This document shows positions 24,939 through 50,122 of a stretch of DNA of 64,000 nt, piece after piece. The DNA is from an uncultured Pelagibacteraceae bacterium (lineage in GTDB: Bacteria; Pseudomonadota; Alphaproteobacteria; Pelagibacterales; Pelagibacteraceae). Both the position numbers and the translations under genes were made by a program. Each line of letters starts with the position of its first letter. Position 1 is the first letter of the stretch. The stretch is taken from positions 1 to 64,000 of the forward strand of contig CACICF010000003.1 in the NCBI GenBank assembly GCA_902584995.1, read 5' to 3'. Below the pieces are notes generated by a model. It was not told the origin of the DNA, made no database searches, and was given only the letters and a program-made list of their open reading frames with translations.

Positions 24939-26525
24939 TTAATTATTTAAAATTGCCTCTGAGCCTTTTTCAGCAATCATAAGTGTAGGAGCATTTAGGT
25001 TTGCACTTGGTATTTCCGGTATCACTGAGGCATCAATCACTCTTAAATTTCCAATCCCATTTACTTTCAAATCTTGATCCACTACTGCCATATCATCAAC
25101 TCCCATTTTGCATGTTCCACAAGGATGATATGCAGTGTCTGCTTTCGATCTAATATATTCATTTAATTCATCATCTGACTGTGCATCAAAACCTGGCCCA
25201 ACTTCATCACCAGCGTGCTCTGCTAAAGCTGGCTGAGATAGAATTTTTCTTGCTACATGAATACACTCTCTTGTTTGTTTAAGATCTTCTTCTTCTTTTA
25301 AATAATTAAATAAAATTTTAGGATAATCGTATGGGTCTGAAGAATTAAGTGTTATTTCACCTCTACTTTTTGGATGATTTGGACTTGCATGTAGTTGATA
25401 ACCATGTGTATCAGGTTCTTCTAGGCCATGATTTATCACAAATGATGGAAAAAAATGAAATTGAATATTAGCAACTTTTCTATCAGGCGATGATTTTGCA
25501 AATCCACCAGCCTCTAAAAATGATTTTGAGCAGGGTCCAGATTTAAACATAAACCACTGCATACCTGCTAAAATTTTAGGAATTAATTTTGTGTATGTGT
25601 AAAGTGTATTAGGAGTTTTACATTTTTGCTGTATATAAGTTTCAAGATGATCTTGTAAATTCTTTCCAACACCCTTTGAGTGATGAATAACTTCAATACC
25701 ATTATCTCTAAGATGGGTTTCGTCGCCTATACCAGATAACATTAATAATTGTGGAGAATTTATAGATCCTCCACTCAAAATTACTTCCTTATTTGCATAA
25801 ATCTTTTCAACTTTGTTATTTATTTTTACTTGAAGTCCAACTGCTTTTTTCCCATCAAATAGTATCTTTTCAACAAATGAGTTTTTTAAGATATTTAGAT
25901 TTTTTCTATTTTCAACAGGGTTTAAATAATACTTGGCAACTCCAGCTCTCTCGCCTTGATGCATTGTAGTATCAAACATGCCAAAACCCTCTTGTTCCTC
26001 ACCATTCATATCTATATTTGTTTTGTGACCTGCTTCAGCTGCAGCATCAATAAATGCTTTAAACAATGGATTTGAATTTTTAGATAAATTTACTGGAAGT
26101 GGTCCCAATGAACCTCTATATTGATTTTCACCTTCAGACCAAGTTTCAATCTTCTTAAAATAAGGAAGAACTTTATCATAGGACCAATTATCCAAACCAA
26201 AATTTTCCCATCTAGTATAGTCATCTCTATTTCCTCTAACAAAGACCATTCCATTATGAGATGAGCATCCTCCAATCATCTTTCCTCTAGGGCAAAAAAC
26301 ACGTCTATTGTTCAAATATGGCTCAGGTTCTGAATAATATTTCCAATTATATTTGGGGTCATGCATTGTATAAAGAAGAGCTAATGGCATTTTAACCTTC
26401 CAAATATCACTAGATCCACCTGCCTCAAATATAGCTACAGAATTATTAGTATTCTCAGATAATCTGTTAGCAACTACACATCCTGCTGAACCAGCACCAA
26501 CTATTAGATAATCAAAAGCTTGCAT
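24939..26525 (-). CDS. GMC family FAD oxidoreductase, choline dehydrogenase-like
   Basis: A 528-residue flavoprotein. The FAD-binding GAGSAGCVVANRLSE is at 10-24, GGCSSHNGMVFVRG near 85-98 matches the GMC signature 1, and the catalytic pair is His467 (YHPCGTCKMG) and Asn511. This fits BetA-type choline dehydrogenase, which makes betaine aldehyde, as well as other alcohol dehydrogenases of the family. Choline oxidation would fit the neighbouring betaine and carnitine genes but is not proven. It adjoins the TauD gene with no spacer. Confidence 0.8.
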   Translation of the reverse strand: MQAFDYLIVGAGSAGCVVANRLSENTNNSVAIFEAGGSSDIWKVKMPLALLYTMHDPKYNWKYYSEPEPYLNNRRVFCPRGKMIGGCSSHNGMVFVRGNRDDYTRWENFGLDNWSYDKVLPYFKKIETWSEGENQYRGSLGPLPVNLSKNSNPLFKAFIDAAAEAGHKTNIDMNGEEQEGFGMFDTTMHQGERAGVAKYYLNPVENRKNLNILKNSFVEKILFDGKKAVGLQVKINNKVEKIYANKEVILSGGSINSPQLLMLSGIGDETHLRDNGIEVIHHSKGVGKNLQDHLETYIQQKCKTPNTLYTYTKLIPKILAGMQWFMFKSGPCSKSFLEAGGFAKSSPDRKVANIQFHFFPSFVINHGLEEPDTHGYQLHASPNHPKSRGEITLNSSDPYDYPKILFNYLKEEEDLKQTRECIHVARKILSQPALAEHAGDEVGPGFDAQSDDELNEYIRSKADTAYHPCGTCKMGVDDMAVVDQDLKVNGIGNLRVIDASVIPEIPSANLNAPTLMIAEKGSEAILNN

Positions 26526-27353
26526 TTAATTTGGATGATCACCCTCGACTGCAATCCTGTCCATAACTCTCTCATGGCCCAATCCTCTGCCAGGAAAAAA
26601 ATCAGTCAGACCTTGGTGAAGGGTACTTCTATTGTCCCAAATTGCTACAGCATTTTCAGTCCATTTAAATCTGCATGTAAAATCAAGCCTTTCTTGATGT
26701 AGAAAAATTTCATTTAAAATATCTGAACTTTCATTTTCATCTAAATCTAAAATTCTTTTAGTGTACATTGAATTTACATACAAAATTTTTTTTCCTGTTT
26801 CAGGATGAGTTCTAACTACTGGATGAGAATTTGAATATTCATCTAGATTACCATTCCCTTCCATTTCCTTATATGCATCAACAAATGCTGCTGCCCCTAG
26901 AGAGCTATGAATGGCTCTCTTATCATTAACCTTATTTTTAATTTTATCGCTTAATGTGTCGTAAGCGATTTCCATATTAGAAAACATTGTATCTCCACCA
27001 ACTGGTGGAACTTTAATTGATCTTAAGATAATTACTTTTGTTGGTTTAGGATTATAACTCACATCAGTATGCCAAGTTTCACCCCATTGTCTTTTTTCTT
27101 CTGGAGCTTTAATTATTCTTAATATTTCAGGATAATCTTTTCTTCCTTTAACATAAATATGTCTTTCTAATGGACCAAAATGTTTTGCTAAATTAATCTG
27201 TTCTTCCGATGTAATATCTTGATCTCTAAAGAAAAGAGCTTTGTGTTCTAATAATAGATTATTTATCTTCTTCCAATTTTCTAAAGAGCTATCTTTTAAA
27301 TTGATACCTCTTACTTCTGCACCTAATGCACCTGATACTAATTTAATTTCCAT
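26526..27353 (-). CDS. TauD/TfdA family 2OG dioxygenase
   Basis: A 275-residue Fe(II)/2OG dioxygenase of the taurine dioxygenase family. The iron triad is His95-x-Asp97 (WHTDVSY) and His246 (WDNRSTLHQGL), with the co-substrate Arg in RVMDRI near 262-266. Family members include taurine and 2,4-D dioxygenases; sulfonates, phenoxy acids and quaternary amines are all used by members. Sequence does not settle the substrate. It lies 3 bp after the thioesterase gene and directly before the GMC gene, in the betaine-linked operon. Confidence 0.85.
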   Translation of the reverse strand: MEIKLVSGALGAEVRGINLKDSSLENWKKINNLLLEHKALFFRDQDITSEEQINLAKHFGPLERHIYVKGRKDYPEILRIIKAPEEKRQWGETWHTDVSYNPKPTKVIILRSIKVPPVGGDTMFSNMEIAYDTLSDKIKNKVNDKRAIHSSLGAAAFVDAYKEMEGNGNLDEYSNSHPVVRTHPETGKKILYVNSMYTKRILDLDENESSDILNEIFLHQERLDFTCRFKWTENAVAIWDNRSTLHQGLTDFFPGRGLGHERVMDRIAVEGDHPN

Positions 27354-27356
27354 AGT

Positions 27357-27824
27357 TTATTTTTTTAACCTACCAGATAATTCTAAATTTTCAGACTTAA
27401 AACTTGATTTATTTTCGTCAATAAATTCACCCATAATTTTAAGCTTATCTTCCTCAAATTCTGTGACCTTTCTTTTACCCAAGTCAATATAAAGGGACAA
27501 ACTCTCCATAGTAGCAGCAAGAGTTTTAGTTTCTTTTTCGTACATTTCACATTTTAAATGTAATCTTTTTTTATCGTGATCAAAATGAGTGCAATATACT
27601 TCTACTTCTTGATTTTCTTTAACCTCATTATTGTAAGTGGTTCTAGTTTCAACAACCATAGTACTTCTCAGATTTGATTTTGCATTTTCACCACCCATTT
27701 GAAATTTATTAAGCATCGTTTCCCATGCTTGATCAAAGATTAAGATATAATAAGCCATATTCATATGTTCATTATAATCTGTCCACTCTTTGATTATTTT
27801 TCTGGTTGCAAGATGATACGACAT
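27357..27824 (-). CDS. cdhB: Hot-dog thioesterase, probable betainyl-CoA thioesterase
   Basis: A 155-residue 4-hydroxybenzoyl-CoA thioesterase-fold protein. EWTDYNEHMNMAYY (13-26) is the catalytic N-terminal motif with Asp16 and the HMN turn. The same motif marks CdhB, which hydrolyses betainyl-CoA to glycine betaine in L-carnitine breakdown, and the C-terminal thioesterase part of fused carnitine dehydrogenases. CdhA and CdhC homologues lie less than 4 kb away on the other strand, which supports the assignment. A general acyl-CoA thioesterase is the alternative. Confidence 0.75.
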   Translation of the reverse strand: MSYHLATRKIIKEWTDYNEHMNMAYYILIFDQAWETMLNKFQMGGENAKSNLRSTMVVETRTTYNNEVKENQEVEVYCTHFDHDKKRLHLKCEMYEKETKTLAATMESLSLYIDLGKRKVTEFEEDKLKIMGEFIDENKSSFKSENLELSGRLKK

Positions 27825-27826
27825 TT

Positions 27827-28687
27827 TTAACTTTTATTAATTTTATCAGCTATTAGTATTTTTCTTTTCATTTCTCTTAGGACAGGTTTTTCAATTAGTT
27901 TACCATCTATAACTACTAAACCCGTATTTGAGTTATTAAATTCCTCTAATATTTTTTTTGCCTTAGTAATTTCATCTTTTGGAGGTGTAAATACATCATT
28001 TAAAATTTGAATTTGTTTCGGATGAATAGAGCCTTTTCCAGTAAATCCAAGATTTCTCACTTGTTCAGCTTCTTTCCTCATTCCATCCATGTTTTCTAAA
28101 TCTAAATAAGGCACATCTATAACGTCTACACCGACACTAGCTCCTGCATGAACCAACTTTGATCTTGCATGAACAAGATTTTCCCATTTATTGTCAACTC
28201 TTAGCTCTGCTGCCATATCAACTCCACCAAAATATAAAGCCACAATTCTCTTGCTAGCATGAGCAATATTATAAATATTTTCTAAAGCTTCATTTGTTTC
28301 CATTATAACATGAAGATCGGTATCTAAATTACAGTCTGTAAGAAGATCGTCCATGAATGTTATTTCATCTGGTGTTTTAACTTTTGGTAACATAATAGCC
28401 TTTAGATTTACTTTACTTGAGATAAAAGCTTCTAGATCTAAAAGACCAAATTTAGTTCTTTGATTATTAAACCTTACAACTAGTTCTACATCATTTTTAA
28501 CTTCGAGCGTTTTAAGAGCTTCTATAGTATTTTTTCGGGCTTGTTCTTTATCGTTTATTGCTATTCCATCTTCTAATTCAATACAAACCATATCAGCACC
28601 TGATGCAATCGCTTTTGGAAACATTTCAGGGTGAAGCCCCGGTGTAAATATAAAACTTCTTCTTACTTTTAATTTATCTAAGTCCAT
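27827..28687 (-). CDS. CitE-like HpcH/HpaI family acyl-CoA lyase
   Basis: A 286-residue TIM-barrel lyase of the citrate lyase beta/malyl-CoA lyase family. RSFIFTPGLHPEMF opens the barrel; Arg72 (VVRFN), Glu130 (VIMET) and Asp157 (FGGVDMAAEL) are the likely CoA-substrate and magnesium ligands; FTGKGSIHPKQI is the conserved late loop. Members split malyl-CoA, methylmalyl-CoA or citramalyl-CoA into glyoxylate or pyruvate plus an acyl-CoA. It lies 1 bp after the class II aldolase gene and 2 bp before the thioesterase gene, so a CoA-ester intermediate is likely in this operon. Confidence 0.85.
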   Translation of the reverse strand: MDLDKLKVRRSFIFTPGLHPEMFPKAIASGADMVCIELEDGIAINDKEQARKNTIEALKTLEVKNDVELVVRFNNQRTKFGLLDLEAFISSKVNLKAIMLPKVKTPDEITFMDDLLTDCNLDTDLHVIMETNEALENIYNIAHASKRIVALYFGGVDMAAELRVDNKWENLVHARSKLVHAGASVGVDVIDVPYLDLENMDGMRKEAEQVRNLGFTGKGSIHPKQIQILNDVFTPPKDEITKAKKILEEFNNSNTGLVVIDGKLIEKPVLREMKRKILIADKINKS

Positions 28688-28688
28688 C

Positions 28689-29414
28689 TTAATTTTTATA
28701 ATCTGGCTCTTCTTTATCTAAAATGATCCTAATTTGAGACAAAAATAAATTTGCAAAATCTGTAGGAAAATTTTCATGCTCCTCTGCAGTTTTTTCTGCA
28801 ATTTCATGGCTTACAACATTAAGTTCCTGGTTTGTTGATAGAGCTGTAAGATATGTTTCTGCTGCTCTCTCAAAATAATAAAGAGAGTTAAAACCTTCAG
28901 CCACTGTTCTTCCTGTGGTTAAAATTCCATGATTTGCAAGCAACATGTGTTGTTTGTTTCCTAAAGCATTTGCCATCTTAATGGATTCTTCTTCTAGTCC
29001 TAGACCTCCAAATTCTTTGAATGCAGATACTCTATTGTAAAACATCATTGTATTTTGATCGATAGGTTTCATAACAGGATCTTTAAGAGTGGAGAGGGCA
29101 GTTGCATATTTTGAGTGAACATGAAAAATGCATCTTGCATGTGGTGCTTTTTCATGAATCGCGCTATGTATATACAGAGCTGTTGGATCAATTATGTCTG
29201 GTTTATTTTTTAGTTCCTCCTTATTTTCTTTAGTCACCAAGATTAAATCACTTGCCTTCATATTACTAAAATGAATGCCTGCCTTATTTACGTAAAAATC
29301 AGAAGAGTCAGGGACGCATGCACTAAAATGGTTTGCAACACCCTCATGCATATTTAGTCTTGCTGTCCATCTAAAAGTAGCGGCTAATTCTTTTTGTAAT
29401 TCAGATATTTCCAT
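28689..29414 (-). CDS. Class II aldolase/adducin family protein
   Basis: A 241-residue zinc-dependent aldolase-type protein. Metal ligands are His98 and His100 (FHVHSKYA) and His162 (ANHGIL). An acidic residue corresponding to the catalytic Glu of fuculose-phosphate aldolase is not obvious, and many adducin-like members lack it and act as decarboxylases or unknown enzymes. It is the first gene of the seven-gene minus-strand operon and diverges from cdhC, leaving only 35 bp for two promoters. Confidence 0.85.
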   Translation of the reverse strand: MEISELQKELAATFRWTARLNMHEGVANHFSACVPDSSDFYVNKAGIHFSNMKASDLILVTKENKEELKNKPDIIDPTALYIHSAIHEKAPHARCIFHVHSKYATALSTLKDPVMKPIDQNTMMFYNRVSAFKEFGGLGLEEESIKMANALGNKQHMLLANHGILTTGRTVAEGFNSLYYFERAAETYLTALSTNQELNVVSHEIAEKTAEEHENFPTDFANLFLSQIRIILDKEEPDYKN

Positions 29415-29449
29415 TTGTATGATTTTAAAATATAGTTGAAAAATAAATT
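29415..29449. promoter_or_regulatory. Short divergent promoter region, aldolase operon and cdhC
   Basis: Only 35 bp separate two divergent start codons. Such a gap cannot hold two independent full promoters, so the two transcription starts must overlap or lie within the coding sequences, and the two operons are probably controlled together. I see no operator-like dyad. Confidence 0.4.
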
Positions 29450-30337
29450 ATGAACAATAACGTTTTTATCTCATGTGCGGTTACAGGGTCCGGAGATACT
29501 GCAAGCAAACATCCTGATTTACCAAAAACTCCAGAGCAAATAGCTAAATCAGCAATAGAAGCAGCAAAAGCAGGAGCTGCAATTGCTCATATTCATGTAA
29601 GAGAAGAGGACGGTACGCCAAGCAGAAGACTGGAATTATATAAAGAAGTAGTAGATAGAATTAGATCAAGCGAAACAGATGTCATTTTAAATTTAACAAC
29701 TGGGATGGGCGGAGATTTAGACATTGGTCAAGGTAAAAATCCTCTAGAGTTTGGTCCAATGACTGATATGGCAAATGTAATGGAAAGAATAGCTAATGCA
29801 GAACAATTTTTACCCGAAATTTGTACTTTAGATGCTGGTACATTAAATTTTGGAGATGGTTCTGTAATTACAGTTAATACACCAAATGATTTAAGAAAGG
29901 CTGCAAAAAAATTACAAGAAATTAAAGTTAAACCAGAAATAGAGGCATTTGATTTAGGAAATATGTGGTTTGGATCGCAATTGTACAAAGAAGGCTTGCT
30001 TGATGATCCACCGATGTTTCAAATGTGTTTAGGTATTCCTTGGGGAGCTCCCGCTACCCCATTAGCAATGCAAGCTATGAAAGACATAATGCCTAAAGAA
30101 GGAGTGTGGTCAGGTTTTGCAATTTCAAAAAACGAAATGCCATTTGTAGCTCAAACAGTTGTAATGGGAGGAAACCCAAGAGTAGGTTTGGAGGATAACC
30201 TATATTTATCAAAGGGCAAACTAGCAACAAATGCTCAATTAGTAGAGAAAGCAATAAGGATAGTTACAGATCTTGGAGCATCAATAATGACAGCAGAGGA
30301 AACTAGGACAAAACTTAAACTTGTTAAACACAAGTAA
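29450..30337 (+). CDS. cdhC: BKACE (DUF849) enzyme, probable dehydrocarnitine-cleaving CdhC
   Basis: A beta-keto acid cleavage enzyme, 295 residues. With acetyl-CoA, CdhC turns 3-dehydrocarnitine into betainyl-CoA and acetoacetate. ISCAVTGSGDT starts the barrel; His47 and His49 (IHVRE) bind the metal; EICTLDAGTLNFGDG, LCLGIPWGAPA and VGLEDN are family motifs. The segments LDAGTLNFGDG and GLLDDPPMFQMCLGIPWG closely resemble what I remember of Pseudomonas CdhC. It overlaps the carnitine dehydrogenase gene by one base (TAATG), strong support for the assignment. Confidence 0.85.
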   Translation: MNNNVFISCAVTGSGDTASKHPDLPKTPEQIAKSAIEAAKAGAAIAHIHVREEDGTPSRRLELYKEVVDRIRSSETDVILNLTTGMGGDLDIGQGKNPLEFGPMTDMANVMERIANAEQFLPEICTLDAGTLNFGDGSVITVNTPNDLRKAAKKLQEIKVKPEIEAFDLGNMWFGSQLYKEGLLDDPPMFQMCLGIPWGAPATPLAMQAMKDIMPKEGVWSGFAISKNEMPFVAQTVVMGGNPRVGLEDNLYLSKGKLATNAQLVEKAIRIVTDLGASIMTAEETRTKLKLVKHK

Positions 30338-31281
30338 TGTTAAATATAAAAAAAGTTGCTGTAGTTGGAACAGGTGTAATCGGAATAGGGTGGATTATAA
30401 GATTTCTAGCTCATAATAAAATCGTTTATGCTTATGATAAAAATCTTAAGCAAAAAAAAATTTTGATTAAAGAAATAAAAAGAGCACTTCCATATGTAAA
30501 AAAACTTTTTAACAAAAAAAAAATCAATTTAAACAATTTAAAATTTTATCTATCTTTAGATGAAGCAGTTAAAGATGCTGATTTTATTCAAGAATGTGCA
30601 CCAGAAAATTATAATTTAAAAACTGTTTTAATGAGGGAAATTTCTAAAAGTTGCAAAAAAAATGTTTTAATTTCATCAAGTTCTTCAGGATTGTTGCCAT
30701 CAAAGATTTTTTCAAAATGTAAAAATATTCAGAGAGGTATTATTGGCCATCCATTCAATCCTGTATATTTGTTACCTTTGGTAGAAATAGTTCCTAGTAA
30801 AAAAACTAGTAAGAAATCTTTAAAAATTGCGAATAAATTTTATAAGTCAATTTCAATGAATCCAATAGTTCTAAAAAAAGAATTACCTGGTTATTTATCT
30901 GATAGACTTCAAGAAGCCTTATGGAGAGAGGCGTTACATATTATTAATGATGGATATGCTACAACTGAGGATTTAGATAGAGCTATAGAGGATGGTCCTG
31001 GTTTAAGATATTCTTTAATGGGAACATTTTTAACCTTCCATTTAGCGGGTGGAAAGGCTGGGATGAAGCATATGTTAGAACAGTTTGGGCCAGCATTAAA
31101 ACTTCCATGGACTAAGCTTAAAGCGCCAAAATTGTCAAAAAAACTCTCAGAAAGGTTGATTTCAGGTACCAAAAAACAATCTAGAGGAAAATCAATTAAT
31201 CAACTGTCAAATATAAGAGACGAGTATTTAGTCAACTTACAACTATTTAGAAAAAAATATGAAAATAAAATTAGAAAATAG
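30337..31281 (+). CDS. cdhA: L-carnitine dehydrogenase (3-hydroxyacyl-CoA dehydrogenase family)
   Basis: Oxidises L-carnitine to 3-dehydrocarnitine with NAD. Length is 314 residues. The Rossmann motif is GTGVIGIGW (11-19); SSSSSGLLPS, GHPFNPVYLLPLVEIV, SDRLQEALWREALHII and FGPALKLPWTKL match the layout of CdhA-type carnitine dehydrogenases rather than FadB-type enzymes. It lacks the C-terminal thioesterase domain found fused in some species; that function is the separate cdhB on the other strand. It is very Lys-rich. Translational overlap with cdhC supports the pathway. Confidence 0.85.
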   Translation: MLNIKKVAVVGTGVIGIGWIIRFLAHNKIVYAYDKNLKQKKILIKEIKRALPYVKKLFNKKKINLNNLKFYLSLDEAVKDADFIQECAPENYNLKTVLMREISKSCKKNVLISSSSSGLLPSKIFSKCKNIQRGIIGHPFNPVYLLPLVEIVPSKKTSKKSLKIANKFYKSISMNPIVLKKELPGYLSDRLQEALWREALHIINDGYATTEDLDRAIEDGPGLRYSLMGTFLTFHLAGGKAGMKHMLEQFGPALKLPWTKLKAPKLSKKLSERLISGTKKQSRGKSINQLSNIRDEYLVNLQLFRKKYENKIRK

Positions 31282-31317
31282 ATATCTAAAGAAAAATTAA
31301 AATGGTAAATTAAATAG

Positions 31318-32352
31318 ATGGACTTCAATCACTTCTTAACTAGCTATATGCCGGATACAAATGTAGGCTCAAAACAACATTTTAAAAATATGTTGGAAGA
31401 ATGTGTTGTTGCAGAGAAACTTGGTTATGCAACAGTATCAATTCCTGAACATCATTTAATAAATTTACTTATGATGCCATCACCTTTGCAGATGGCTGTA
31501 AAAATTGCATCTATCACAAAAAATATTAAAATCACAACTGGAATAGTTGTTTTGCCTCTTCACGATATGAGAACATATGCTGGTGAGGTTGCAACAGCAG
31601 ATATTTTAACTGATGGCAGATTAATTTTAGGTGTTGGGAGAGGTGCTTTTGCTTGGGAGATGCAAAGATTAGGAACTCCCATAGAAAAGTCAAAGGAAAA
31701 ATTTATAGAGTCACTCGAGGTATTACAATTATTGTTAAAAAACAAAGAGGTTTCATATAAAGGTAAATTCTATGATTTTGAACCAATCACAATTATGCCT
31801 CGACCGATAAGTAATCCTGTGCAAATGATGGTAGCTGCCATGAATTTAGAAAGTATTAAAGATGCAGCAGCAAGAGGATTTCATGTTCAGTCAACAGTAT
31901 TATCGGGTACTAAAGATCTCTTATTAAGTAGAGTGAATGCGTTTAAGGAGGGTTGTACAAAGTTAGGAGAAGAGGGAAAACTACTTAAACTATCCATGCA
32001 ACGTATGGCCTATTTAGCAAAAGATGAAAATGAGGCTAGAGAAAAAACGAAACTTGCTTATGAATATTACAAAAGATTCGATAATATGTTTACTGGCCCT
32101 GGTAAAGTATATGAAGGAAATATTGAAGCTTTACCAAGAAAACAAACTTTAGATGAATTAAAAGAAAATCTTTTGATTTGTCCACTGAATGAGATGATTG
32201 ATAAGTTAAGTGTCTATGCCGAAGCTGGAGTTGATGAAATTATTCTTAGTTCAAGTTTTGGTCAATCGCAAAAAGATTTAATAGAGTCGATGCATAGAAT
32301 TGGTGAAAATGTAATTCCATATTTTAAAAAATCAAACATACAAGTAGCATAA
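31318..32352 (+). CDS. LLM class flavin-dependent monooxygenase
   Basis: A luciferase-like flavoenzyme of 344 residues. SIPEHHLINL near 41, ITTGIVVLPLHDMRTYAGEVATADILTDGRLILGVGRGAF around 70-110 and the C-terminal SVYAEAGVDEIILSSSFG are the LLM barrel motifs. It lies 36 bp after cdhA and 6 bp before an alpha/beta hydrolase that is a paralogue of the hydrolase paired with the first LLM enzyme. It may attack another carnitine- or betaine-type compound, or an unrelated substrate; sequence does not tell. Confidence 0.85.
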   Translation: MDFNHFLTSYMPDTNVGSKQHFKNMLEECVVAEKLGYATVSIPEHHLINLLMMPSPLQMAVKIASITKNIKITTGIVVLPLHDMRTYAGEVATADILTDGRLILGVGRGAFAWEMQRLGTPIEKSKEKFIESLEVLQLLLKNKEVSYKGKFYDFEPITIMPRPISNPVQMMVAAMNLESIKDAAARGFHVQSTVLSGTKDLLLSRVNAFKEGCTKLGEEGKLLKLSMQRMAYLAKDENEAREKTKLAYEYYKRFDNMFTGPGKVYEGNIEALPRKQTLDELKENLLICPLNEMIDKLSVYAEAGVDEIILSSSFGQSQKDLIESMHRIGENVIPYFKKSNIQVA

Positions 32353-32358
32353 ATATCT

Positions 32359-33129
32359 ATGAATATCATAGATTGTAATTATTCAGTAACAGGGTCAGGA
32401 CCTGCAATTTTTTTTACCCATGGCGTAGGAGGAGCAGAGGATGCATGGAGGTTCATAGTTCCAAAACTCAAAGATAAGTTCACAGTTGTGACATATGATC
32501 TAAGAGGTCATGGAAAATCACCAGTTACTAATAAAGATTTTAATCTAGATGATCTTGTTTTAGATCTTGAAAGAGTTAGAGAAAAAACAGGTATAGAAAA
32601 AGCCCATTTTATGGGGCATTCTCTAGGAGGAATGATTGCACCTGCTTATGCAAGGAAATTTCCCGACAGAGTAAATTCAGTAGGTTTATTGTCAACAGTG
32701 GCAGGAAGATCAGATGAAGATAAACAAAAAGTGTGGAATGTAATATCTGATTTAAAAAATAAAGGTGTTGAACAAACTTTAAAAAATTTAACCACGAGGT
32801 GGTTTACAGATGATTTCATCAAAAAAAATCCTGATCTTGTTTCAAGAAGATTAAAACAGGTTATAGATACTGACAAAGATGTTTTTATTAATGTATTTAA
32901 AATATATGCAGAAACTGAAATGATTTCATGGCTAAAAGAAATTAAGAAGCCATGCTTATTTATGACAGGAGAAAATGATGGAGGTTGTACACCTTCTCAC
33001 AATGAGAGAATGTCAAATGAGATTGAAATTTCTAAATTGGTTATAATACCAAATGTAAAACACTCTTTTTTGATAGAGGCTCCTGAGCAAATAACAAATA
33101 ACTTATTAGGATTTATTGAAAGTTTATAA
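32359..33129 (+). CDS. Alpha/beta hydrolase, LLM-associated
   Basis: A 256-residue alpha/beta hydrolase. HGVGGAEDAW near 21-30 forms the oxyanion loop, Ser88 in GHSLGG is the nucleophile, Asp in TGENDGGCTP the acid, and His in VKHSFLIE the base. The cap motif RWFTDDFIKKNPD is nearly the same as in the hydrolase at 18657-19430. It follows the LLM gene by 6 bp and converges with the SDR gene, 4 bp apart and with no terminator hairpin between them. Confidence 0.85.
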   Translation: MNIIDCNYSVTGSGPAIFFTHGVGGAEDAWRFIVPKLKDKFTVVTYDLRGHGKSPVTNKDFNLDDLVLDLERVREKTGIEKAHFMGHSLGGMIAPAYARKFPDRVNSVGLLSTVAGRSDEDKQKVWNVISDLKNKGVEQTLKNLTTRWFTDDFIKKNPDLVSRRLKQVIDTDKDVFINVFKIYAETEMISWLKEIKKPCLFMTGENDGGCTPSHNERMSNEIEISKLVIIPNVKHSFLIEAPEQITNNLLGFIESL

Positions 33130-33133
33130 AAAC

Positions 33134-33919
33134 TTAATGCATTCTTAAAGTGTTTCCATCAACACCAACAACTTGTCCTGAAATTCTAGAAGACTCATCT
33201 GAAATTAAATAGCAGCACATATTCCCAATATCTTTTTCATAAACCCAAGTGTTTAGAGATGTCATAGAAACAAACTCACTTTCAACAGCTTTTTTAGAAA
33301 TTTTTAAAAATTTTGCTTTATCTCTGATTACTCTACCCATCCTGTCTCCTTTTACAGTTCCTGGACAAATCGCATTAACTCTAATTTTAAATTTTCCTAA
33401 TTCCATTGCTAAGGTTTTTGTCATTCCCACAACTGCCCACTTACTTGCTGAATACGGAGATCTTAGTGGAAAACCAAATATACCTGCAGTAGAAGATAGA
33501 TTAACTACAGAACCACCTTTATTTTTTTTTAACATTGGAATTGCTAATTTTGAAAAAATAAAATGACTAATTACATTTATTTTTAATGTTTGTTCCCAAT
33601 CTTTTGTCTTAAGTTTTTCCATAGTTCCAGTTGGACCTGCTACTCCAACATTATTAATTAGAGCATCAATTTTTTGTGTTTTTTTTTTAATTTCTTTAAA
33701 AAAATTAGTCACATCGTTTTCATTTGAAGCATCACAATGAAAACTAAATAATCTTTTATTATTTAATGGATGTTTTTTTAATTTATTTATTGATTTTTGA
33801 TCTATGTCACACAAAAATACTTTTGCACCTTTTTCAAGACACTCTTTTGCTGTCGCCCAACCAATCCCTGTAGCACCAGCAGAAATAATTATCTTTTTAC
33901 TTTTAAAGTTATATGACAT
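33134..33919 (-). CDS. Short-chain dehydrogenase/reductase
   Basis: A 261-residue NAD(P)-dependent classical SDR. Cofactor motif GATGIG is at 15-20, NNVG at 89-92, and the catalytic set is Asn115, Ser142/143, Tyr156 and Lys160; CPGTVKGDRM corresponds to the PG motif. An acidic Asp38/Asp40 after strand 2 suggests NAD rather than NADP. It follows the phytanoyl-like oxygenase by 8 bp, which follows a ProV ATPase, so it probably oxidises the alcohol made by the oxygenase. Confidence 0.9.
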   Translation of the reverse strand: MSYNFKSKKIIISAGATGIGWATAKECLEKGAKVFLCDIDQKSINKLKKHPLNNKRLFSFHCDASNENDVTNFFKEIKKKTQKIDALINNVGVAGPTGTMEKLKTKDWEQTLKINVISHFIFSKLAIPMLKKNKGGSVVNLSSTAGIFGFPLRSPYSASKWAVVGMTKTLAMELGKFKIRVNAICPGTVKGDRMGRVIRDKAKFLKISKKAVESEFVSMTSLNTWVYEKDIGNMCCYLISDESSRISGQVVGVDGNTLRMH

Positions 33920-33927
33920 TATTTTAT

Positions 33928-34779
33928 TTAATCGGCTAAACCGTCAGATCTAACTTTATTTCTTTCTATATGTATGGGCAACACCTTTCCATAAATTGCT
34001 TTAGAATGTTCAGGTGTATTTACTCTCCATGGATCTAATACATATGCTGGTATACACATGTAACGTGAGGTTTTTCCTGTTATTTTGGTTACTCTATGCA
34101 TAGTAAATCGTCCTTTAAATATTTGTAAATCACCAGGTTTTAGTTCAAGTTGTTTTACTTTTGAACGATCTCCATCTAGAACTTTTTTTACTTCATCAAA
34201 CCTTTCATTTCCTGGTTCTCTTATATTTGGACAATACTCAAATATCCCACCTTGTTCTGGTTTTTGTATCATAAGACTTAAAGTAAATTCACAACTATCA
34301 AAATGCCAAGGCAATATACCATCAGGCTCCATTACATTATAAGCATGACAAGCTAAGGGATCAGCCCATCTATAAATTGGAGAAATTCCTAGACAAGCAG
34401 ATACAAATTTAAGTAATTCTTCAGTTTCGTAAAGAAATTTCATTTCGGAGTCTTTTGCAAAGCAATCAGAGTTTAGATATCCATTGTATCTGTTCATAAA
34501 TATTCTTTTTGGATGATCCTTTGGAAGAGAGGGGTCATCTTTTGCATAAAGATATGCATTGATACTTTCTTTAGACATATAAACTTCATCTAACTGTTGT
34601 TCTAATTCTTTTCTCATAACTGCTAATGAATTTGGTAAAATAAAGTTTGGAATTACTGAACAACTATCATTTTCTAATTCTGCTTTACATTTTTCAATTA
34701 TTTTTTTTATTTTGTGAGATTGTAAGTCGTGAATAGGATATTTTTCTAAATCAACAATTTTGCCTAAGTTTTTTTTCAT
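33928..34779 (-). CDS. 2OG/Fe(II) oxygenase, phytanoyl-CoA hydroxylase-like
   Basis: A 283-residue protein with an apparent jelly-roll oxygenase core. Likely iron ligands are His159-x-Asp161 (PWHFDSCEFT) and His228 (FTMHRVT), with the co-substrate Arg239 in TSRY. The Asp is retained, so it should hydroxylate rather than halogenate (halogenases of related families have Gly there). FKGRFTMHRVTKITGKTSRY recalls ArpA/PhyH-type oxygenases. The substrate is unknown, but the gene lies between a ProV ATPase (16 bp upstream) and an SDR, suggesting oxidation of an imported osmolyte. Confidence 0.75.
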   Translation of the reverse strand: MKKNLGKIVDLEKYPIHDLQSHKIKKIIEKCKAELENDSCSVIPNFILPNSLAVMRKELEQQLDEVYMSKESINAYLYAKDDPSLPKDHPKRIFMNRYNGYLNSDCFAKDSEMKFLYETEELLKFVSACLGISPIYRWADPLACHAYNVMEPDGILPWHFDSCEFTLSLMIQKPEQGGIFEYCPNIREPGNERFDEVKKVLDGDRSKVKQLELKPGDLQIFKGRFTMHRVTKITGKTSRYMCIPAYVLDPWRVNTPEHSKAIYGKVLPIHIERNKVRSDGLAD

Positions 34780-34795
34780 AACTAATTTATATAAA

Positions 34796-35821
34796 TTATG
34801 AGCTTCTCAGCGATTCTTGTAATTCTTTATTAGAGATATAACCTTTAGCGTTTCCTTGTTTATCGACAACTTCGCAATTGGAATTACTACAAACAACTTG
34901 AGGTAGAAATTCCTCGATAAATTGATCTTCTTCAACTTTAATCAGGTTTGTTTTATCAATATCATCTGATTGATTTAAAGGTTTCATAATAATTTTTGCT
35001 TTAATAACTTTGGTTCTATTCACATCTTTTACAAATGCCTCTACATATTCGTCTGCTGGGTTCATTATAATATCTACTGGCGTTCCTACTTGTACAAGTT
35101 TTCCTGCATTTAAAATTCCAATATGATCTCCTAATCTAAGTGACTCATCAAGATCGTGAGTTATAAAAACTATAGTTTTTTTTAATTCTGCTTGGAGATC
35201 TATCAATTGTTTTTGCATGTCACTTCTTATCAATGGATCTAATGCTGAAAAAGCTTCGTCCATAAGCATAATGTCAGTATCTGTGGCTAAAGCTCTTGCA
35301 AGCCCTACTCGTTGCTGCATTCCACCAGATAGTTGAGCAGGATATTGATTTTCAAACCCAGATAAACCAACAGACTCAATTTTCTCCATTGCAGTAGCAT
35401 TTCTTTTTTCAATTTCCACACCTTGCATTTCAAGTCCGTACCCAACGTTTTGTAAAACTGTCTTATGCGGAAATAAGCCAAACCTTTGAAATACCATGCT
35501 CATTTTTTGCCTTCTAAATTCAATTAGTTGCTCTTTGTTAAGAGTAGTCACGTCCTTGCCTTCAACTAAAATTTCCCCAGAAGTAGGATCTATCAATCTA
35601 TTTAAGTGTCTGATTAATGTAGATTTTCCAGATCCAGATAAACCCATGCACACAAAGGTTTCTCCTTCTTCAATTTTTAAAGACACATTATCCAATCCAA
35701 CTGTATGTCCTGTTTGCTCTAAAACATCCTCTTTTGTAGCACCCTCTTGAACCATTTTAAGAACGCTGGAAGGTTTTGGTCCGAAAATTTTATATACGTT
35801 ATTGATTTCAATTTTTGACAT
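34796..35821 (-). CDS. proV: Glycine betaine/proline-type ABC ATPase ProV (orphan copy)
   Basis: A 341-residue cytoplasmic ATPase of the ProV/OpuAA family. The N-terminal FGPKPSSVLKMVQEGATKEDV is the family-specific region before the core. Walker A GLSGSGKST is at 60-68, signature LSGGMQQR at 164-171, and Walker B LMDEAF around 187. The C-terminal part (about 265-341) is a single short CBS-like region rather than the two full CBS domains of ProV. No permease is next to it; the only ProW-type permease here is 3 kb away and already has a neighbouring ATPase. It starts the operon with the 2OG oxygenase and SDR. Confidence 0.88.
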   Translation of the reverse strand: MSKIEINNVYKIFGPKPSSVLKMVQEGATKEDVLEQTGHTVGLDNVSLKIEEGETFVCMGLSGSGKSTLIRHLNRLIDPTSGEILVEGKDVTTLNKEQLIEFRRQKMSMVFQRFGLFPHKTVLQNVGYGLEMQGVEIEKRNATAMEKIESVGLSGFENQYPAQLSGGMQQRVGLARALATDTDIMLMDEAFSALDPLIRSDMQKQLIDLQAELKKTIVFITHDLDESLRLGDHIGILNAGKLVQVGTPVDIIMNPADEYVEAFVKDVNRTKVIKAKIIMKPLNQSDDIDKTNLIKVEEDQFIEEFLPQVVCSNSNCEVVDKQGNAKGYISNKELQESLRSS

Positions 35822-35934
35822 TTTTAAAAGTCTAATTCTTTTAATGCATCAAAGCAAACGTACAATTAGATTTATAAAAGGTTTTCAACCATTAATTGAA
35901 TTGAAATTTTTACCATTTTATATAATTATTTGTT
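35822..35934. promoter_or_regulatory. Divergent promoter region, ProV and gamma-butyrobetaine dioxygenase-like gene
   Basis: A 113 bp AT-rich divergent gap. On the plus strand tataat-like sequence occurs about 15 bp before the dioxygenase start. No Shine-Dalgarno is visible on that side and no clear dyad. Confidence 0.35.
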
Positions 35935-37059
35935 ATGAATTCAATTTCTAAAATCTCAAAAAATAGTACTTACCTTCAAATTATTTGGAATGATGGAGAG
36001 GAGAGTAAATTCAATTATATGTGGCTAAGAGACAATTGTCCAACCGCGCATGACAAGGACTCACGACATAGAATGTTTAATATTTTAGAAGTTTCTAAAG
36101 ATATAAATCCTAAAAAATATTCTCTTAATGATGATGGAAAATTAGAAATTGAGTGGAGTGAGGGAGAACACATAAGTTATTATGACCCAAAATGGTTAAG
36201 AGAAAATTGCTATACAATTAAAAATAAACAAAAATATACATCTCCTTATCAACTTTGGGATAATAATTTAAAAAATAATTTTGAAAGTATATGTATTGAG
36301 CATGATGAAGTAATTGACTCTGACGAAGGTTTAATAAAGTGGCTTGAACTATTACATCATAAAGGTATTGCGATAGTTAAAAATGCACCAACAGAAAAAA
36401 AATCAGGATTTAAAATACTACATCGAATAAGCCATGTGAGAGAAACATTTTTTAAAACTCCTTTTGAGGTAATAAATATTCCAAAACCAAATAATTCAGC
36501 ATACACGGCGCATGCGTTAAGAAATCATATGGATTTACCTTGGTTTGAACTGCCTCCAGGTTATCAGTTTTTACATTGTTTAGTAAATGATGCAAACGGT
36601 GGAGACTCTTCAGCAATCGATGGGTTTGCTGTAGCAGATTATTTAAGACAAAATGAAAAAGATATATTTGAGACTCTAGTTTCTGTGCCTCTAAAATTTA
36701 GAGATAAAGATTATACTCAAGAGTCCCATAGAAGTTACCATGCACCTGCAATTAGTTTAACAAAAGACAAAGATTTTCATGATATTAGATTTAGTGTTGC
36801 AACAATGGACGCTCTAGATTGTCATCCAGATCAAATGGATAAAGTTTATAAAGCCCACCATAGATTTGGAAATCTTCTACATGATGATAAGTTTCAGATT
36901 AAATTTAGATTAGGACGTGGAGACATATTTTCTTTTAATAATAGGCGTGTTTTACACGGCAGAACTGCTTTTGATCCAAATTCAGGTCATCGTCATCTTC
37001 AAGGATACTATTTAGACAGAGATGAAATACTTGGAAGATTAGAATACCTTAAAAAATAA
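35935..37059 (+). CDS. Gamma-butyrobetaine dioxygenase-like TauD-family enzyme
   Basis: A 374-residue two-domain protein: an N-terminal DUF971-type domain (WLRDNC at 30-35) and a C-terminal TauD domain. The iron triad is His198-x-Asp200 (NHMDLPW) and His341 (VLHGRTAFD). This layout is that of gamma-butyrobetaine dioxygenase (BBOX), which makes L-carnitine; trimethyllysine dioxygenase and TmpA share it. Of the three clustered zinc Cys of BBOX (pattern CxCxxC), only Cys35 remains; the others are Thr37 and Asp40. Carnitine-degrading genes 5 kb upstream support a quaternary-amine substrate. Confidence 0.75.
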   Translation: MNSISKISKNSTYLQIIWNDGEESKFNYMWLRDNCPTAHDKDSRHRMFNILEVSKDINPKKYSLNDDGKLEIEWSEGEHISYYDPKWLRENCYTIKNKQKYTSPYQLWDNNLKNNFESICIEHDEVIDSDEGLIKWLELLHHKGIAIVKNAPTEKKSGFKILHRISHVRETFFKTPFEVINIPKPNNSAYTAHALRNHMDLPWFELPPGYQFLHCLVNDANGGDSSAIDGFAVADYLRQNEKDIFETLVSVPLKFRDKDYTQESHRSYHAPAISLTKDKDFHDIRFSVATMDALDCHPDQMDKVYKAHHRFGNLLHDDKFQIKFRLGRGDIFSFNNRRVLHGRTAFDPNSGHRHLQGYYLDRDEILGRLEYLKK

Positions 37060-37755: not shown

Positions 37756-38760
37756 TTATTTTGGAATCCAACTTTTCCATTTGTCTGGATTGTTGTCTTT
37801 CCATTCTTTAACAACTTCTTTAAGATCTCTATTTTTCTGTTTTACTTCAACCAACATTACAGCTTGATCAGCATTATCGAATTTCATTTTAGTGAAAAAT
37901 TCAGCTGCTTTAGCGTGCTCAGGCTTAGCAAAAGTATCAGGATTACCATAATTGAAAGTGTAGTCCTTTGCCCAACCAGTTGCTGGCCATGCTGCAGTTC
38001 CACAATCTTTCCAGTTGTTTGCTTCTGTGAATGAGTCACAAGTTTTATGTGCTGGAAGTTTTACACCAACCATGTCATAAGCACCAAAGAACCAATGAGG
38101 CTCCCATAGATATAACAAGAAAGGTTCTTTTCTTTCATAAGCAGCTACAGCTTCGGCAATTGCTGCTGCTTCTGTTCCTAATTCGTCAGCTTGGAAATCA
38201 ATACCTAAAAGATCAAGTCTTTTTTGGTCATGACAATTCCACCCTGCAACAGGACATGCAATTAATCTTCCTTTGCTTCCAGATTCAATTGTAGCAAATT
38301 TGTCTTTATGCTTGTTTAAATCTTCCCATGATTTAATGCCTAAACTTTCGGCTGCATATCTTGGAATGTAATAGTCAGATAAACCTATAATCCCAGATGT
38401 TCCTAAAAGTTTTACACTTCCATCACCTTCATAATTAAACATAGTTTGACCATCGTAAATTAGCGGACCTTTCATCATTACTGTGTCTGCTTCGGCATAA
38501 CTTGGCCAACTTTCACATGCAAAATCAATTTCTCCAGCTGCAATCGCTTCCCATAAACCTGTACCTGATGGGAATACAACTCTTTTGACTTTGTATCCTA
38601 ACTCTTCTTCTAGCATACTCACAGCTACTTGACATGTAATCTCTCCACCAGTCCAGTCAGCGACTGCAGCCGTTAATCTTTTAGCGTGTGCAGTACCAAA
38701 GCTTCCTAGAACTAATACAAGTGATAATATCAATGCTGAAATACTTTTTGATATTTTCAT
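37756..38760 (-). CDS. Glycine betaine/choline-type ABC binding protein ProX (OpuAC)
   Basis: Periplasmic type II binding protein of the OpuAC family, 334 residues from the chosen start. Signal peptide: MKISKSISALILSLVLVLGS to AHA. The core has ADWTGGEITCQVAVSMLEEE, CESWPSYAEAD, IACPVAGWNCHDQKR and LYLWEPHWFF, with several Trp that may form an aromatic box around a trimethylammonium group. Four or more Cys are present in the mature protein. An upstream ATG at 38775 overlaps the Shine-Dalgarno (gaggg) of the ATG at 38760, so I chose the latter. A terminator follows the gene, as in the other binding protein genes. Confidence 0.88.
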   Translation of the reverse strand: MKISKSISALILSLVLVLGSFGTAHAKRLTAAVADWTGGEITCQVAVSMLEEELGYKVKRVVFPSGTGLWEAIAAGEIDFACESWPSYAEADTVMMKGPLIYDGQTMFNYEGDGSVKLLGTSGIIGLSDYYIPRYAAESLGIKSWEDLNKHKDKFATIESGSKGRLIACPVAGWNCHDQKRLDLLGIDFQADELGTEAAAIAEAVAAYERKEPFLLYLWEPHWFFGAYDMVGVKLPAHKTCDSFTEANNWKDCGTAAWPATGWAKDYTFNYGNPDTFAKPEHAKAAEFFTKMKFDNADQAVMLVEVKQKNRDLKEVVKEWKDNNPDKWKSWIPK

Positions 38761-38857
38761 ATTATTTTCCCTCATTTTAATTAATTAAAAACTTATTTTA
38801 GATCAAAATTGATAGGTATGTAAACTTATAAAATTGTAACGTTTTTGTTTAGAATGC

Positions 38858-40981
38858 TTATAAACCAAGTGCTTCTCTTTGTTTTTTTGTCCAAGCAAGA
38901 GAAATTCTATCAATAATAATAGCCAATAAAACTATACCAATTCCTGCTGCAAGACCTCTTCCAGTATCTGATCTAGCTAAACCATTGAAAACTTCTAATC
39001 CCAAACCTTTTCCTCCAATTAGAGGAGTAACAATTTGCATTGCAAATGCCATAATTACTGTTTGATTAAAGCCAACGACTAAACTTGGTACAGCAAGTGG
39101 AAATTTAATTTTATTTAATGTTTGTAATAATGTTCCTCCAAAAGATCTAGAAACTTCAGAATATGTTCCTGAAACTTGTGTTAATCCTAGAGAGGTTAAT
39201 CTTATAATTGGAGGTATTGAATAAATTACTGTTGCAAGAACTGCTGACACTGTTCCTCCACCAAAAAACATTAGAACAGGTATTAGGTAGCAGAAATAGG
39301 GCAGGGTCTGCATAGCATCCAAAACAACGTTCTGAACATTCCTAAATCTCTCATTGTAGGATGCAATTATTCCGAGTGGAACACCAATAGCAAAACACAA
39401 AATTACTGAAACTAAAACTGATGAAAGAGTGATCATTGCTTGGGGCCATATCCCGTTAGCACCTATAAATAACAATAATAGCAATGTAACAACAGCAAAT
39501 CTCAATCCAACGGTAAAATATCCAATCGCTACAAATATACCAGTAGTGTACCACCATGGTATATGTGTGAGAAAAGTATCAAGTGGCCTTAAAAGATTAA
39601 GATAAATAAATCCCCTTAAACCTTTGGTAAACGCAATAAAGCCAGGGTTTACAGTTAATGATTTTACTCCATCGGCAATTGGTTGTCTTATAGAAAGTTT
39701 CCATTCCTCAGGAAAGGTTCCTATTTTAAATAAACTTGAATCTATAAAAGAAATGAGAAAAAAAATAATAAATGAGGGTATAATGTAATACCTTTTGCTT
39801 AATAATTCGCCTATATCTTTAGCGGTATCTTTATTAAATAAAGAAATTAAAAATTCAAAAACGTAAGCAATATATTTAGTAATATTTATGCAAACAAAAT
39901 TTACTAAACCACTCAAAAATTCTAAAGGTTTTTCTATAATTCTAGCGATACTGTATTTTTCCCAAGCTTGCGGTAGTAAGTAAAATTTTTGAACATCTGA
40001 CGGCAAAGTTGTTTTCGGTTTACTTAATGCTAAACCAAACCTATCAAACATGATAGCCATAAATAATATACAAAGACCACCTTCCATTGCCCAACCAACA
40101 TCTAAGTTTCTAATTGCTAGCCAAACTTGTCCCCCAATACCTTCGGCTCCTATAAAACAAGCAAGTACAACTAATGCTAATGCCATCATGATCACTTGGT
40201 TTATTCCCATCATTATGCTTGGTAGAGAAAGTGGTATTTTAATTTTAAATAATAACTGTAACTTGCTTGAACCAAAAGATGTAGCTGACTCAATCGTTTG
40301 TTCAGGAACCTGTCTTATACCCGTATTAGTTAATCTAATTATTGGGGGCATTGCATAAATCATGGTTGCCAATATTGCTGGCGCCCCACCGATTCCAAAA
40401 AAGAATAAAGCTGGAAAAAGATATACAAAGGCAGGCATAACCTGCATTGTATCTAAAATAGGCTTCATAAAATTATCAAACCTATCACTTTGAGAGCACA
40501 TCACACCCAATGTAACGCCAAATACAACGCACAGTAATACAGATAAACCCATTAAGGCCAAGGTCTGCATGGACTCATCCCACATTCCTGTTCCTCCCCA
40601 GAAGTAAATAACAAATAAAGAATACAGTCCAAGCCTTAAGCCACCAGCTATTAAACAAGGTAAAAAAATTATCGCTGCAATTAACAACCAAGGTGAGTCA
40701 ATTAGAAAGTCCTCTAGGAAATAATATCCATTTTTAATGTATCCAGCTATTATCTTGGTAAACCATCTATAATTTTTTTTTAAATAATCTTCGCCATCAT
40801 TTACCCAGGCTGTAAATGTAAATTCATCAGTAACTACTTTAGGCATTTTGGATGGACCTTCACTTTGAAAAGATAGCCATAAAGCTATAAGAAAAGTTAT
40901 TAAGATTACCGAATATGTTATTATATTTTTGGAGTTATTTGATTTTTCTTCAATACTTGTAACTTCAGATGACATATTCAT
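38858..40981 (-). CDS. Fused double ProW-type permease
   Basis: A 707-residue membrane protein containing two BPD_transp_1 permease domains in one chain, roughly residues 110-320 and 490-705. Each half has its own MQVMPAFVYLFP- or MQTLPYFCYLIPV-type helix, the PPIIRLT turn, and an EAA-like ATPase loop (SFGSSKLQLLFKIKIPLSLPS and SFGGTLLQTLNKIKFPLAVPS). ProW is normally one domain that forms a homodimer, so this is an intramolecular dimer that allows the halves to specialise. It lies upstream of ProX on the same strand and divergent from a ProV ATPase. Confidence 0.88.
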   Translation of the reverse strand: MNMSSEVTSIEEKSNNSKNIITYSVILITFLIALWLSFQSEGPSKMPKVVTDEFTFTAWVNDGEDYLKKNYRWFTKIIAGYIKNGYYFLEDFLIDSPWLLIAAIIFLPCLIAGGLRLGLYSLFVIYFWGGTGMWDESMQTLALMGLSVLLCVVFGVTLGVMCSQSDRFDNFMKPILDTMQVMPAFVYLFPALFFFGIGGAPAILATMIYAMPPIIRLTNTGIRQVPEQTIESATSFGSSKLQLLFKIKIPLSLPSIMMGINQVIMMALALVVLACFIGAEGIGGQVWLAIRNLDVGWAMEGGLCILFMAIMFDRFGLALSKPKTTLPSDVQKFYLLPQAWEKYSIARIIEKPLEFLSGLVNFVCINITKYIAYVFEFLISLFNKDTAKDIGELLSKRYYIIPSFIIFFLISFIDSSLFKIGTFPEEWKLSIRQPIADGVKSLTVNPGFIAFTKGLRGFIYLNLLRPLDTFLTHIPWWYTTGIFVAIGYFTVGLRFAVVTLLLLLFIGANGIWPQAMITLSSVLVSVILCFAIGVPLGIIASYNERFRNVQNVVLDAMQTLPYFCYLIPVLMFFGGGTVSAVLATVIYSIPPIIRLTSLGLTQVSGTYSEVSRSFGGTLLQTLNKIKFPLAVPSLVVGFNQTVIMAFAMQIVTPLIGGKGLGLEVFNGLARSDTGRGLAAGIGIVLLAIIIDRISLAWTKKQREALGL

Positions 40982-50118: not shown

Positions 50119-50122
50119 AGTA

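Follow-up and report, generated by a model that had tools for sequence, protein, structure and literature searches.

In Pseudomonas aeruginosa, an established carnitine operon, caiX-cdhCAB-hocS, has been described (PMC5806209), and a genomic island with like kinds of genes was reported in 2025 from Arctic SAR11 (PMC12421898). Carnitine metabolism genes are described as unique to offshore SAR11 genera (PMC12636525), and in R. pomeroyi CdhABC rise in growth on N-osmolytes (PMC12478193). In the passages covered by our search of the open-licence literature, no step-by-step account of the conversion of gamma-butyrobetaine into glycine betaine was found for SAR11. Here we analyze a related island in an uncultured Pelagibacteraceae bacterium. 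It lies in a stretch of 64,000 nucleotides (contig C3, positions 1-64000; hereafter the window) from a genome of 1.09 Mb in 32 contigs that is about 80% complete, and it carries homologues of cdhC, cdhA, cdhB and gamma-butyrobetaine hydroxylase (BBOX).

With a probability of roughly 85%, judged from sequence, the genes of this island serve to take up gamma-butyrobetaine and L-carnitine and to break them down oxidatively to glycine betaine. More specifically, a ProXWV-type ATP-binding cassette (ABC) transporter would import the quaternary amine, BBOX would hydroxylate gamma-butyrobetaine at C3 to give L-carnitine, and CdhA would oxidize carnitine with NAD to 3-dehydrocarnitine. CdhC, a member of the BKACE family, would then convert 3-dehydrocarnitine and acetyl-CoA to betainyl-CoA and acetoacetate, the latter being the co-product expected from the reaction type (PMC12482172, PMC4922564). 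A thioesterase would release free glycine betaine from betainyl-CoA, to be kept as osmolyte or demethylated, and acetoacetate would be activated to acetoacetyl-CoA and cleaved by a thiolase. All of these enzymatic steps are inferred from the genes, as are the substrate of the transporter and any advantage for growth. The sequence-only reading of this DNA had proposed the same conversion from four open reading frames (ORFs) starting at 27357, 29450, 30337 and 35935; all four are full-length and intact, and Pfam and NCBIfam place them in the families it had named.

The window shares with the P. aeruginosa operon the homologues of CdhC, CdhA and CdhB, and in both cases an alpha/beta hydrolase and a binding protein for quaternary amines lie close by (PMC5806209); the pathway is known from Pseudomonas, as the sequence-only reading had stated. 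Unlike in that operon, the window thioesterase lies on the opposite strand, 1.6 kb off, and BBOX and extra aldolase, lyase and monooxygenase genes are present. A comparison with Pfam or NCBIfam, covering all but a few of the island ORFs, found no AraC/DJ-1 (CdhR-type) regulator. In nine Pseudomonas loci and one Burkholderia locus, cdhC, cdhA, cdhB and BBOX are linked as they are here, and this supports the proposed conversion at the level of gene content. Those loci are co-directional and compact, with the BBOX start at most about 3.6 kb from the cdhC start, whereas the window set is scattered through about 10 kb, uses both strands and is interrupted by other genes. In loci of Rhizobium, Paracoccus, Leisingera, Novosphingobium and Sulfitobacter, dehydrogenase and thioesterase activities are both predicted, as in the window, but in one fused carnitine 3-dehydrogenase (NF005716) rather than in separate genes.

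The likeness to the Arctic SAR11 island, compared by gene names, extends to a glycine betaine ABC transporter, CHDH, ALDH, CDH, BKACE and BBOX, and further to class II aldolase, thioesterase, GDPD, ADH, 3-hydroxyisobutyrate-DH type and DMT transporter genes (PMC12421898). The CitE-type lyase of the window is not among the 17 genes named in the available text on that island, which also names a lactoylglutathione lyase and an SMR transporter, neither of them searched for in the window (PMC12421898).

What the sequences show directly is that the genes are there, which families they belong to, and how they are linked and co-occur. The BKACE, the putative CdhC, is the best-supported part of the island. 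It matches PF05853 at 307.8 bits (cut-off 24.8), which places it in the BKACE family. In a tree of 26 BKACEs, CdhC falls within a clade of 16 rows (99/98) that takes in all those whose locus holds a CdhA homologue, and the ten sampled BKACEs that lack one all branch outside it. Of these ten, eight are plasmid rows (30-46% identity) and the other two are extra paralogues (28-29%); flanks of about 5 kb were searched for CdhA, and four of the outside rows were flagged as long branches. We also considered CdhC as another kind of BKACE, a reading that we rejected given its place in the tree. Residues H47, H49, R244, E248 and D249, which we take to be the zinc and catalytic residues of Kce, are invariant across nine aligned sequences. 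Among annotated plasmid loci at 48-57% identity, six of seven have an annotated carnitine dehydrogenase adjoining the BKACE or one gene off, and the seventh, from Citricoccus, carries a thioesterase together with a gene of the 3-hydroxyacyl-CoA dehydrogenase type. Seven annotated loci at 46% identity or less have neighbours other than carnitine dehydrogenase.

Further cdhC loci were taken as the best 80 of 591 and split by locus number and record title into groups of 39, 15 and 26, two loci of the 15 (L221, L223) also being titled Pelagibacteraceae. Among these 80, the closest CdhC relatives, at 87-100% identity, are L160-L195, titled Pelagibacteraceae, Pelagibacterales or Candidatus Pelagibacter. 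The group of 26 (18 loci from Pseudomonas, 2 from Burkholderia and 6 more from Paraglaciecola, OM182 and four metagenome bins) carries BKACEs 54-60% identical to window CdhC, with cdhA in 24 loci, a thioesterase in 23 and BBOX in 10. The other 54 loci, several of which end at contig ends, hold cdhA in 41, BBOX in 34 and a thioesterase in 40.

The cdhC and cdhA genes overlap, as the sequence-only reading had noted, by one base within TAATG. The best NCBIfam model for CdhA is L-carnitine dehydrogenase (NF005471, 344 bits), with the best non-carnitine model at 222 bits, and CdhA is 45-49% identical to the dehydrogenases adjoining cdhC in Pseudomonas and Burkholderia loci. Its nearest relatives in the PDB are lambda-crystallins. 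The fused protein of an alphaproteobacterium locus (L038) clears NF005716 at 705.8 bits (cut-off 592). The refutation that the sequence-only reading had itself named, a better fit of CdhC and CdhA to non-carnitine enzymes, is not what we see: CdhC groups with BKACEs linked to carnitine dehydrogenase, and CdhA scores best on carnitine dehydrogenase models. The observation made in that reading is confirmed, and its interpretation, judged by sequence, finds good support.

We then looked at linkage among relatives. The same-genus sample comprises 120 genomes that are related to one another and mostly incomplete, and which therefore do not represent independent trials. cdhC was found in 46 of them (not counting G047, E 4.1e-5) and cdhA in 41 of these 46 and in none of the 74 genomes without cdhC, an association beyond what chance would give. 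The two genes abut in 29 of the 41 genomes, lie on different contigs in 7 and are on one contig but apart in 5. BBOX, counted at 75% identity or more, occurs in 55 genomes, 41 of them with cdhC. In a sample of 53 genomes from a sister family, cdhC and cdhA were each found in 39 and together in 38, and cdhC, cdhA and BBOX stand in a row in seven of the eight loci read, the eighth contig stopping before BBOX. The sister-family BBOX behind cdhA is 58-62% identical to that of the window.

The acetoacetate-CoA ligase of the sister family (741 bits, cut-off 520.9) is no more than 3 kb from cdhC in 34 of the 39 genomes with cdhC; in the remainder it is about 15 kb away in three, on another contig in one and not found in one. 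In the genus of the window, this ligase was found in 40/46 genomes with cdhC vs 22/74 without (Fisher p 5e-10, uncorrected for kinship), including G005 and G063, which are near-identical to the window's genome. A ligase, a BKACE and a carnitine 3-dehydrogenase stand in a row in Leisingera. One sister-family locus (L031) begins, on the minus strand, with a TmpA-like gene, acetoacetate-CoA ligase and ALDH, continues with cdhC, cdhA, BBOX and a DddP-type dimethylsulfoniopropionate (DMSP) lyase (787.8 bits, cut-off 600), and ends with a homocysteine methyltransferase-family gene, an oxidoreductase-GcvT gene and ProV- and ProW-type genes. Against its cut-off of 338, the betaine model gives the methyltransferase-family gene 97.8, and a sarcosine oxidase model with a cut-off of 1164 gives the oxidoreductase-GcvT gene 174.7; to read the pair as BHMT-like and DMGDH-like is an interpretation of scores far under the cut-offs. 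A methyltransferase-family match occurs at the equivalent place in L032 and L039 and not in L033, L034, L036 and L040, so that the downstream part is variable. The TmpA-like dioxygenase of L031 (4445-6087) adjoins a small gene that resembles the HD type on visual inspection; as a candidate TmpB, that gene was rejected for lack of any NCBIfam (E<=1e-20) or Pfam (E<=1e-5) match.

For BBOX, three NCBIfam models rank as gamma-butyrobetaine dioxygenase (TIGR02409, 322.9 bits), TmpA (271) and trimethyllysine dioxygenase (201). TmpA-like paralogues rank the opposite way, both in the window's own genome (contig C2; TmpA 338.7, BBOX 263.4) and in the sister family (347 vs 292). The identification of 35935 as TmpA or trimethyllysine dioxygenase was accordingly rejected, given the lower scores and the separate TmpA-like paralogue. 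In alignment, the protein keeps the Fe(II)/2-oxoglutarate ligands H198, D200, H341 and R353 and four aromatic cage positions, F173, F177, Y190 and Y359. We take the human ligands to be H202, D204 and H347, and the human cage to be Y177, W181, Y194 and Y366; at the positions of Y177 and W181, each of the seven bacterial sequences in the alignment has Phe. CPCxxC, presumably the N-terminal zinc-binding Cys motif of human BBOX, is missing from the window and sister-family rows of the alignment and present in the L038 and Burkholderia rows.

The thioesterase step is the weakest of the pathway, and we consider it somewhat probable that the candidate CdhB at 27357 releases glycine betaine. This protein of 155 residues has a 4HBT_2 domain in Pfam, and its only NCBIfam match is to the C-terminal part (347-472) of the fused carnitine 3-dehydrogenase, so that its 4HBT domain resembles the thioesterase part of carnitine dehydrogenase loci. 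Used as a query, it matches 17 records of a plasmid collection; the nine whose neighbourhoods were inspected are carnitine loci (four Burkholderia, three Caballeronia, Citricoccus and Paracoccus, the last match falling inside an annotated carnitine 3-dehydrogenase), and the other eight are from Azospirillum (seven) and Methylobacterium (one). The count of 23 thioesterases in the 26 further loci holds at E 1e-4 and becomes 17 at 1e-6, in a search where the fused dehydrogenase query competed. Within the genus, the thioesterase is present in 88/120 genomes.

Several results weigh against the proposed pathway. CdhC lies under the cut-offs of the four substrate-specific BKACE models it matched in NCBIfam, and CdhA fails the equivalog cut-off of NF005471 (344 vs 414 bits). 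BBOX misses that of TIGR02409 (322.9 vs 414.75), with all three models under cut-off; a sister-family BBOX from a cdhC-cdhA-BBOX row (310.7) and that of L038 (382.6) are likewise under it. The attempt to tell BBOX from TmpA by cage residues failed, the aromatic cage being common to BBOX and TmpA-like rows. Candidate CdhB scores 60 bits on NF005716, whose cut-off of 592 is set for the whole fusion (the thioesterase of a Caballeronia carnitine locus scores 98). The thioesterase is present in 41/46 same-genus genomes with cdhC but also in 47/74 without, and was found in none of the 53 sister-family genomes; it is therefore not tied to the pathway. Among the 55 same-genus genomes with BBOX, 14 have no detected cdhC or cdhA, one of them a single contig and 99% complete. 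No acetoacetate-CoA ligase was detected in the genome that the window comes from, which is 80% complete; kinship among genomes inflates the association counts, and the quaternary amine is a putative substrate of the transporter.

The BBOX results raise the question of whether the carnitine half alone is real, with CdhA and CdhC degrading imported carnitine and the BBOX homologue acting on another trimethylammonium compound. The 14 genomes just mentioned, the lead over TmpA of just 52 bits with both under cut-off, and Phe at the human Y177 and W181 positions are consistent with this. Because the genome holds a separate TmpA-like paralogue on C2, and because BBOX follows cdhC-cdhA in the sister family and is in-locus in 10/26 further loci, we judge it improbable. 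A still smaller probability, very low in our estimate, goes to the idea that the BKACE and the dehydrogenase act on a different beta-hydroxy or beta-keto acid: substrates of the family are varied (PMC4922564) and neither protein clears an equivalog cut-off, against which stand the clade placement and the recurrent carnitine dehydrogenase neighbours.

It is also conceivable, though we do not expect it, that the island chiefly supplies glycine betaine as an osmolyte and cold protectant, by uptake and by conversion of choline and carnitine, and not as food. Such a role was proposed for the Arctic SAR11 island (PMC12421898), and a choline-dehydrogenase-type gene lies inside the window's island; the acetoacetate-CoA ligase association and the genes read as BHMT- and DMGDH-like downstream in L031 point to breakdown instead. 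Supply of an osmolyte and breakdown of gamma-butyrobetaine and carnitine overlap, and the two are compatible.

Table 1. Features of the island and of the aldolase-BBOX loci in relatives
Feature	Coordinates	Strand	Match or basis
GMC oxidoreductase, choline dehydrogenase type	24939..26525	-	NF002550 722.6 bits (cut-off 605); TIGR01810 betA 658.1 (cut-off 732.1)
TauD-family dioxygenase	26526..27353	-	PF02668 192.7 bits
cdhB candidate, predicted betainyl-CoA thioesterase (4HBT)	27357..27824	-	4HBT_2; NF005716 C-terminal part
HpcH/CitE-type C-C lyase	27827..28687	-	PF03328 139.7 bits; NF038242 244.5 (below cut-off 375)
Class II aldolase-family protein	28689..29414	-	NF005689 298.1 bits (cut-off 260; model named 'hypothetical protein'); PF00596
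cdhC, predicted BKACE-family 3-dehydrocarnitine cleavage enzyme	29450..30337	+	PF05853; CDH-linked clade
cdhA, predicted L-carnitine 3-dehydrogenase	30337..31281	+	NF005471 344 bits
Luciferase-like monooxygenase	31318..32352	+	PF00296 146.9 bits
Alpha/beta hydrolase	32359..33129	+	PF00561 108.7 bits
Second ProV-type ATPase, divergent from BBOX	34796..35821	-	TIGR01186 370.2 bits (above cut-off 326.6)
BBOX homologue, predicted gamma-butyrobetaine hydroxylase	35935..37059	+	TIGR02409 322.9 bits
ProX-type (OpuAC) substrate-binding protein	37756..38775	-	PF04069 147 bits
ProW-type permease	38858..40981	-	PF00528 BPD_transp_1, 2 stretches
ProV-type ATPase	41058..42104	+	TIGR01186 366.8 bits (above cut-off 326.6)
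Aldehyde dehydrogenase	50540..51970	-	HpaE 446, TIGR01804 BADH 436.4 bits (both below cut-off)
Aldolase-BBOX pairs	L097:8268-10135, L099:8409-10279, L137:5245-7115, and 9 further same-genus genomes

The ProXWV-type transporter that the sequence-only reading placed next door is indeed there (Table 1), with two ProV-type ATPases for one ProX and one two-domain ProW. Near the counterpart of the ATPase at 34796, some same-genus relatives carry another ProX/ProW pair, the identities being about 21-30% and 37-40%. Prediction of the ProX substrate was abandoned, the best PDB match (4xz6, E 1.4e-14) being too distant.

Among the other genes of the island, the TauD-family dioxygenase matches three NCBIfam models, none of them for BBOX, and is perhaps, by name and place, the 'BBOX(2)' of the Arctic island. 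The CitE/HpcH-type lyase and the class II aldolase sit between cdhB and cdhC, and both could in principle cut C-C bonds; the aldolase gene is divergent from cdhC across a gap of 35 bp. Directly 3' of cdhA on the same strand, and missing from several relatives, are the monooxygenase and the alpha/beta hydrolase. The hydrolase could take the role of hocS (acylcarnitine hydrolase), and a hydrolase also lies behind the carnitine dehydrogenase in the Novosphingobium locus, without a monooxygenase in between. A search by homology gave one match in 37 loci (L229, 22% identity), did not bear out HocS, and so leaves place as the sole hint of this role. For the aldehyde dehydrogenase, the betaine-aldehyde type ranks second among matches, and relatives at 52-54% identity adjoin or lie near cdhC in several sister-family loci. 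The window further holds a dioxygenase-like protein (33928-34779; without a match in NCBIfam and best matched in Pfam by HalD, halogenase D, at 45.9 bits against a cut-off of 26) and a DmdA DMSP demethylase (61441-62607; 532 bits, cut-off 410), 24 kb from BBOX and adjoined by a thiolase (60301-61425; 419 bits, cut-off 240.55). Two homocysteine S-methyltransferase-family genes (46581-47570 and 49204-50214) were considered as BHMT and set aside, both being under the cut-offs of the betaine-homocysteine models.

Outside the window, 12 of the 14 same-genus genomes with BBOX and without detected cdhC or cdhA have a gene of the class II aldolase family immediately 5' of BBOX. These 12 are matches at 71% identity or more, and genomes with matches at 29-35% only (G012, G022, G025, G053, G055, G084, G108, G109) were left out; at the same threshold the gene was found in none of the 46 genomes with cdhC. 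It encodes 243 residues in L097; the aldolase and BBOX alignments end 20-26 bases apart, and the two ORFs overlap in L097 and L099. Of the seven such loci that were read, six have a BADH-like aldehyde dehydrogenase immediately next to BBOX and one has it at a distance of 7 kb; its relatives also occur near BBOX in some loci with cdhC. Eleven of the 12 aldolase-linked BBOX proteins fall in one clade (100/99), the position of the twelfth not being settled, so the arrangement perhaps reflects one or two events rather than twelve. A 56% identical homologue in the alphaproteobacterium G174 adjoins an AraC/DJ-1-type regulator and a thiolase. In the open-licence literature searched, one paper contains both 'butyrobetaine' and 'class II aldolase' in its available text (PMC12421898).

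The genus might have two mutually exclusive modules linked to BBOX, cdhC-cdhA or a class II aldolase, the latter a putative, uncharacterised route of carnitine breakdown and a possible novelty; we find this rather doubtful. At a guess, carnitine would be cleaved to betaine aldehyde and passed to the neighbouring betaine-aldehyde-type dehydrogenase, without CdhA or CdhC. A retro-aldol reaction on an unactivated carboxylate would be unusual.

The gene set itself is not new, being preceded in the available literature by the Pseudomonas operon and the Arctic SAR11 island (PMC5806209, PMC12421898). The expectation of the sequence-only reading that its presence and arrangement here would be notable is accordingly weakened, a like island being in print and carnitine genes being reported from offshore genera (PMC12636525). 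The value of our analysis therefore lies mainly in added sequence-level support, namely the clade placement of the BKACE, the cdhC-cdhA-BBOX order in the sister family and the association with acetoacetate-CoA ligase. The organism may live on carnitine or gamma-butyrobetaine as a source of carbon, nitrogen and methyl groups. SAR11 bacteria are among the most abundant heterotrophs of the ocean. If the pathway holds true in many of them, they would have an extra source of glycine betaine and, through glycine betaine, also of glycine and methyl groups.

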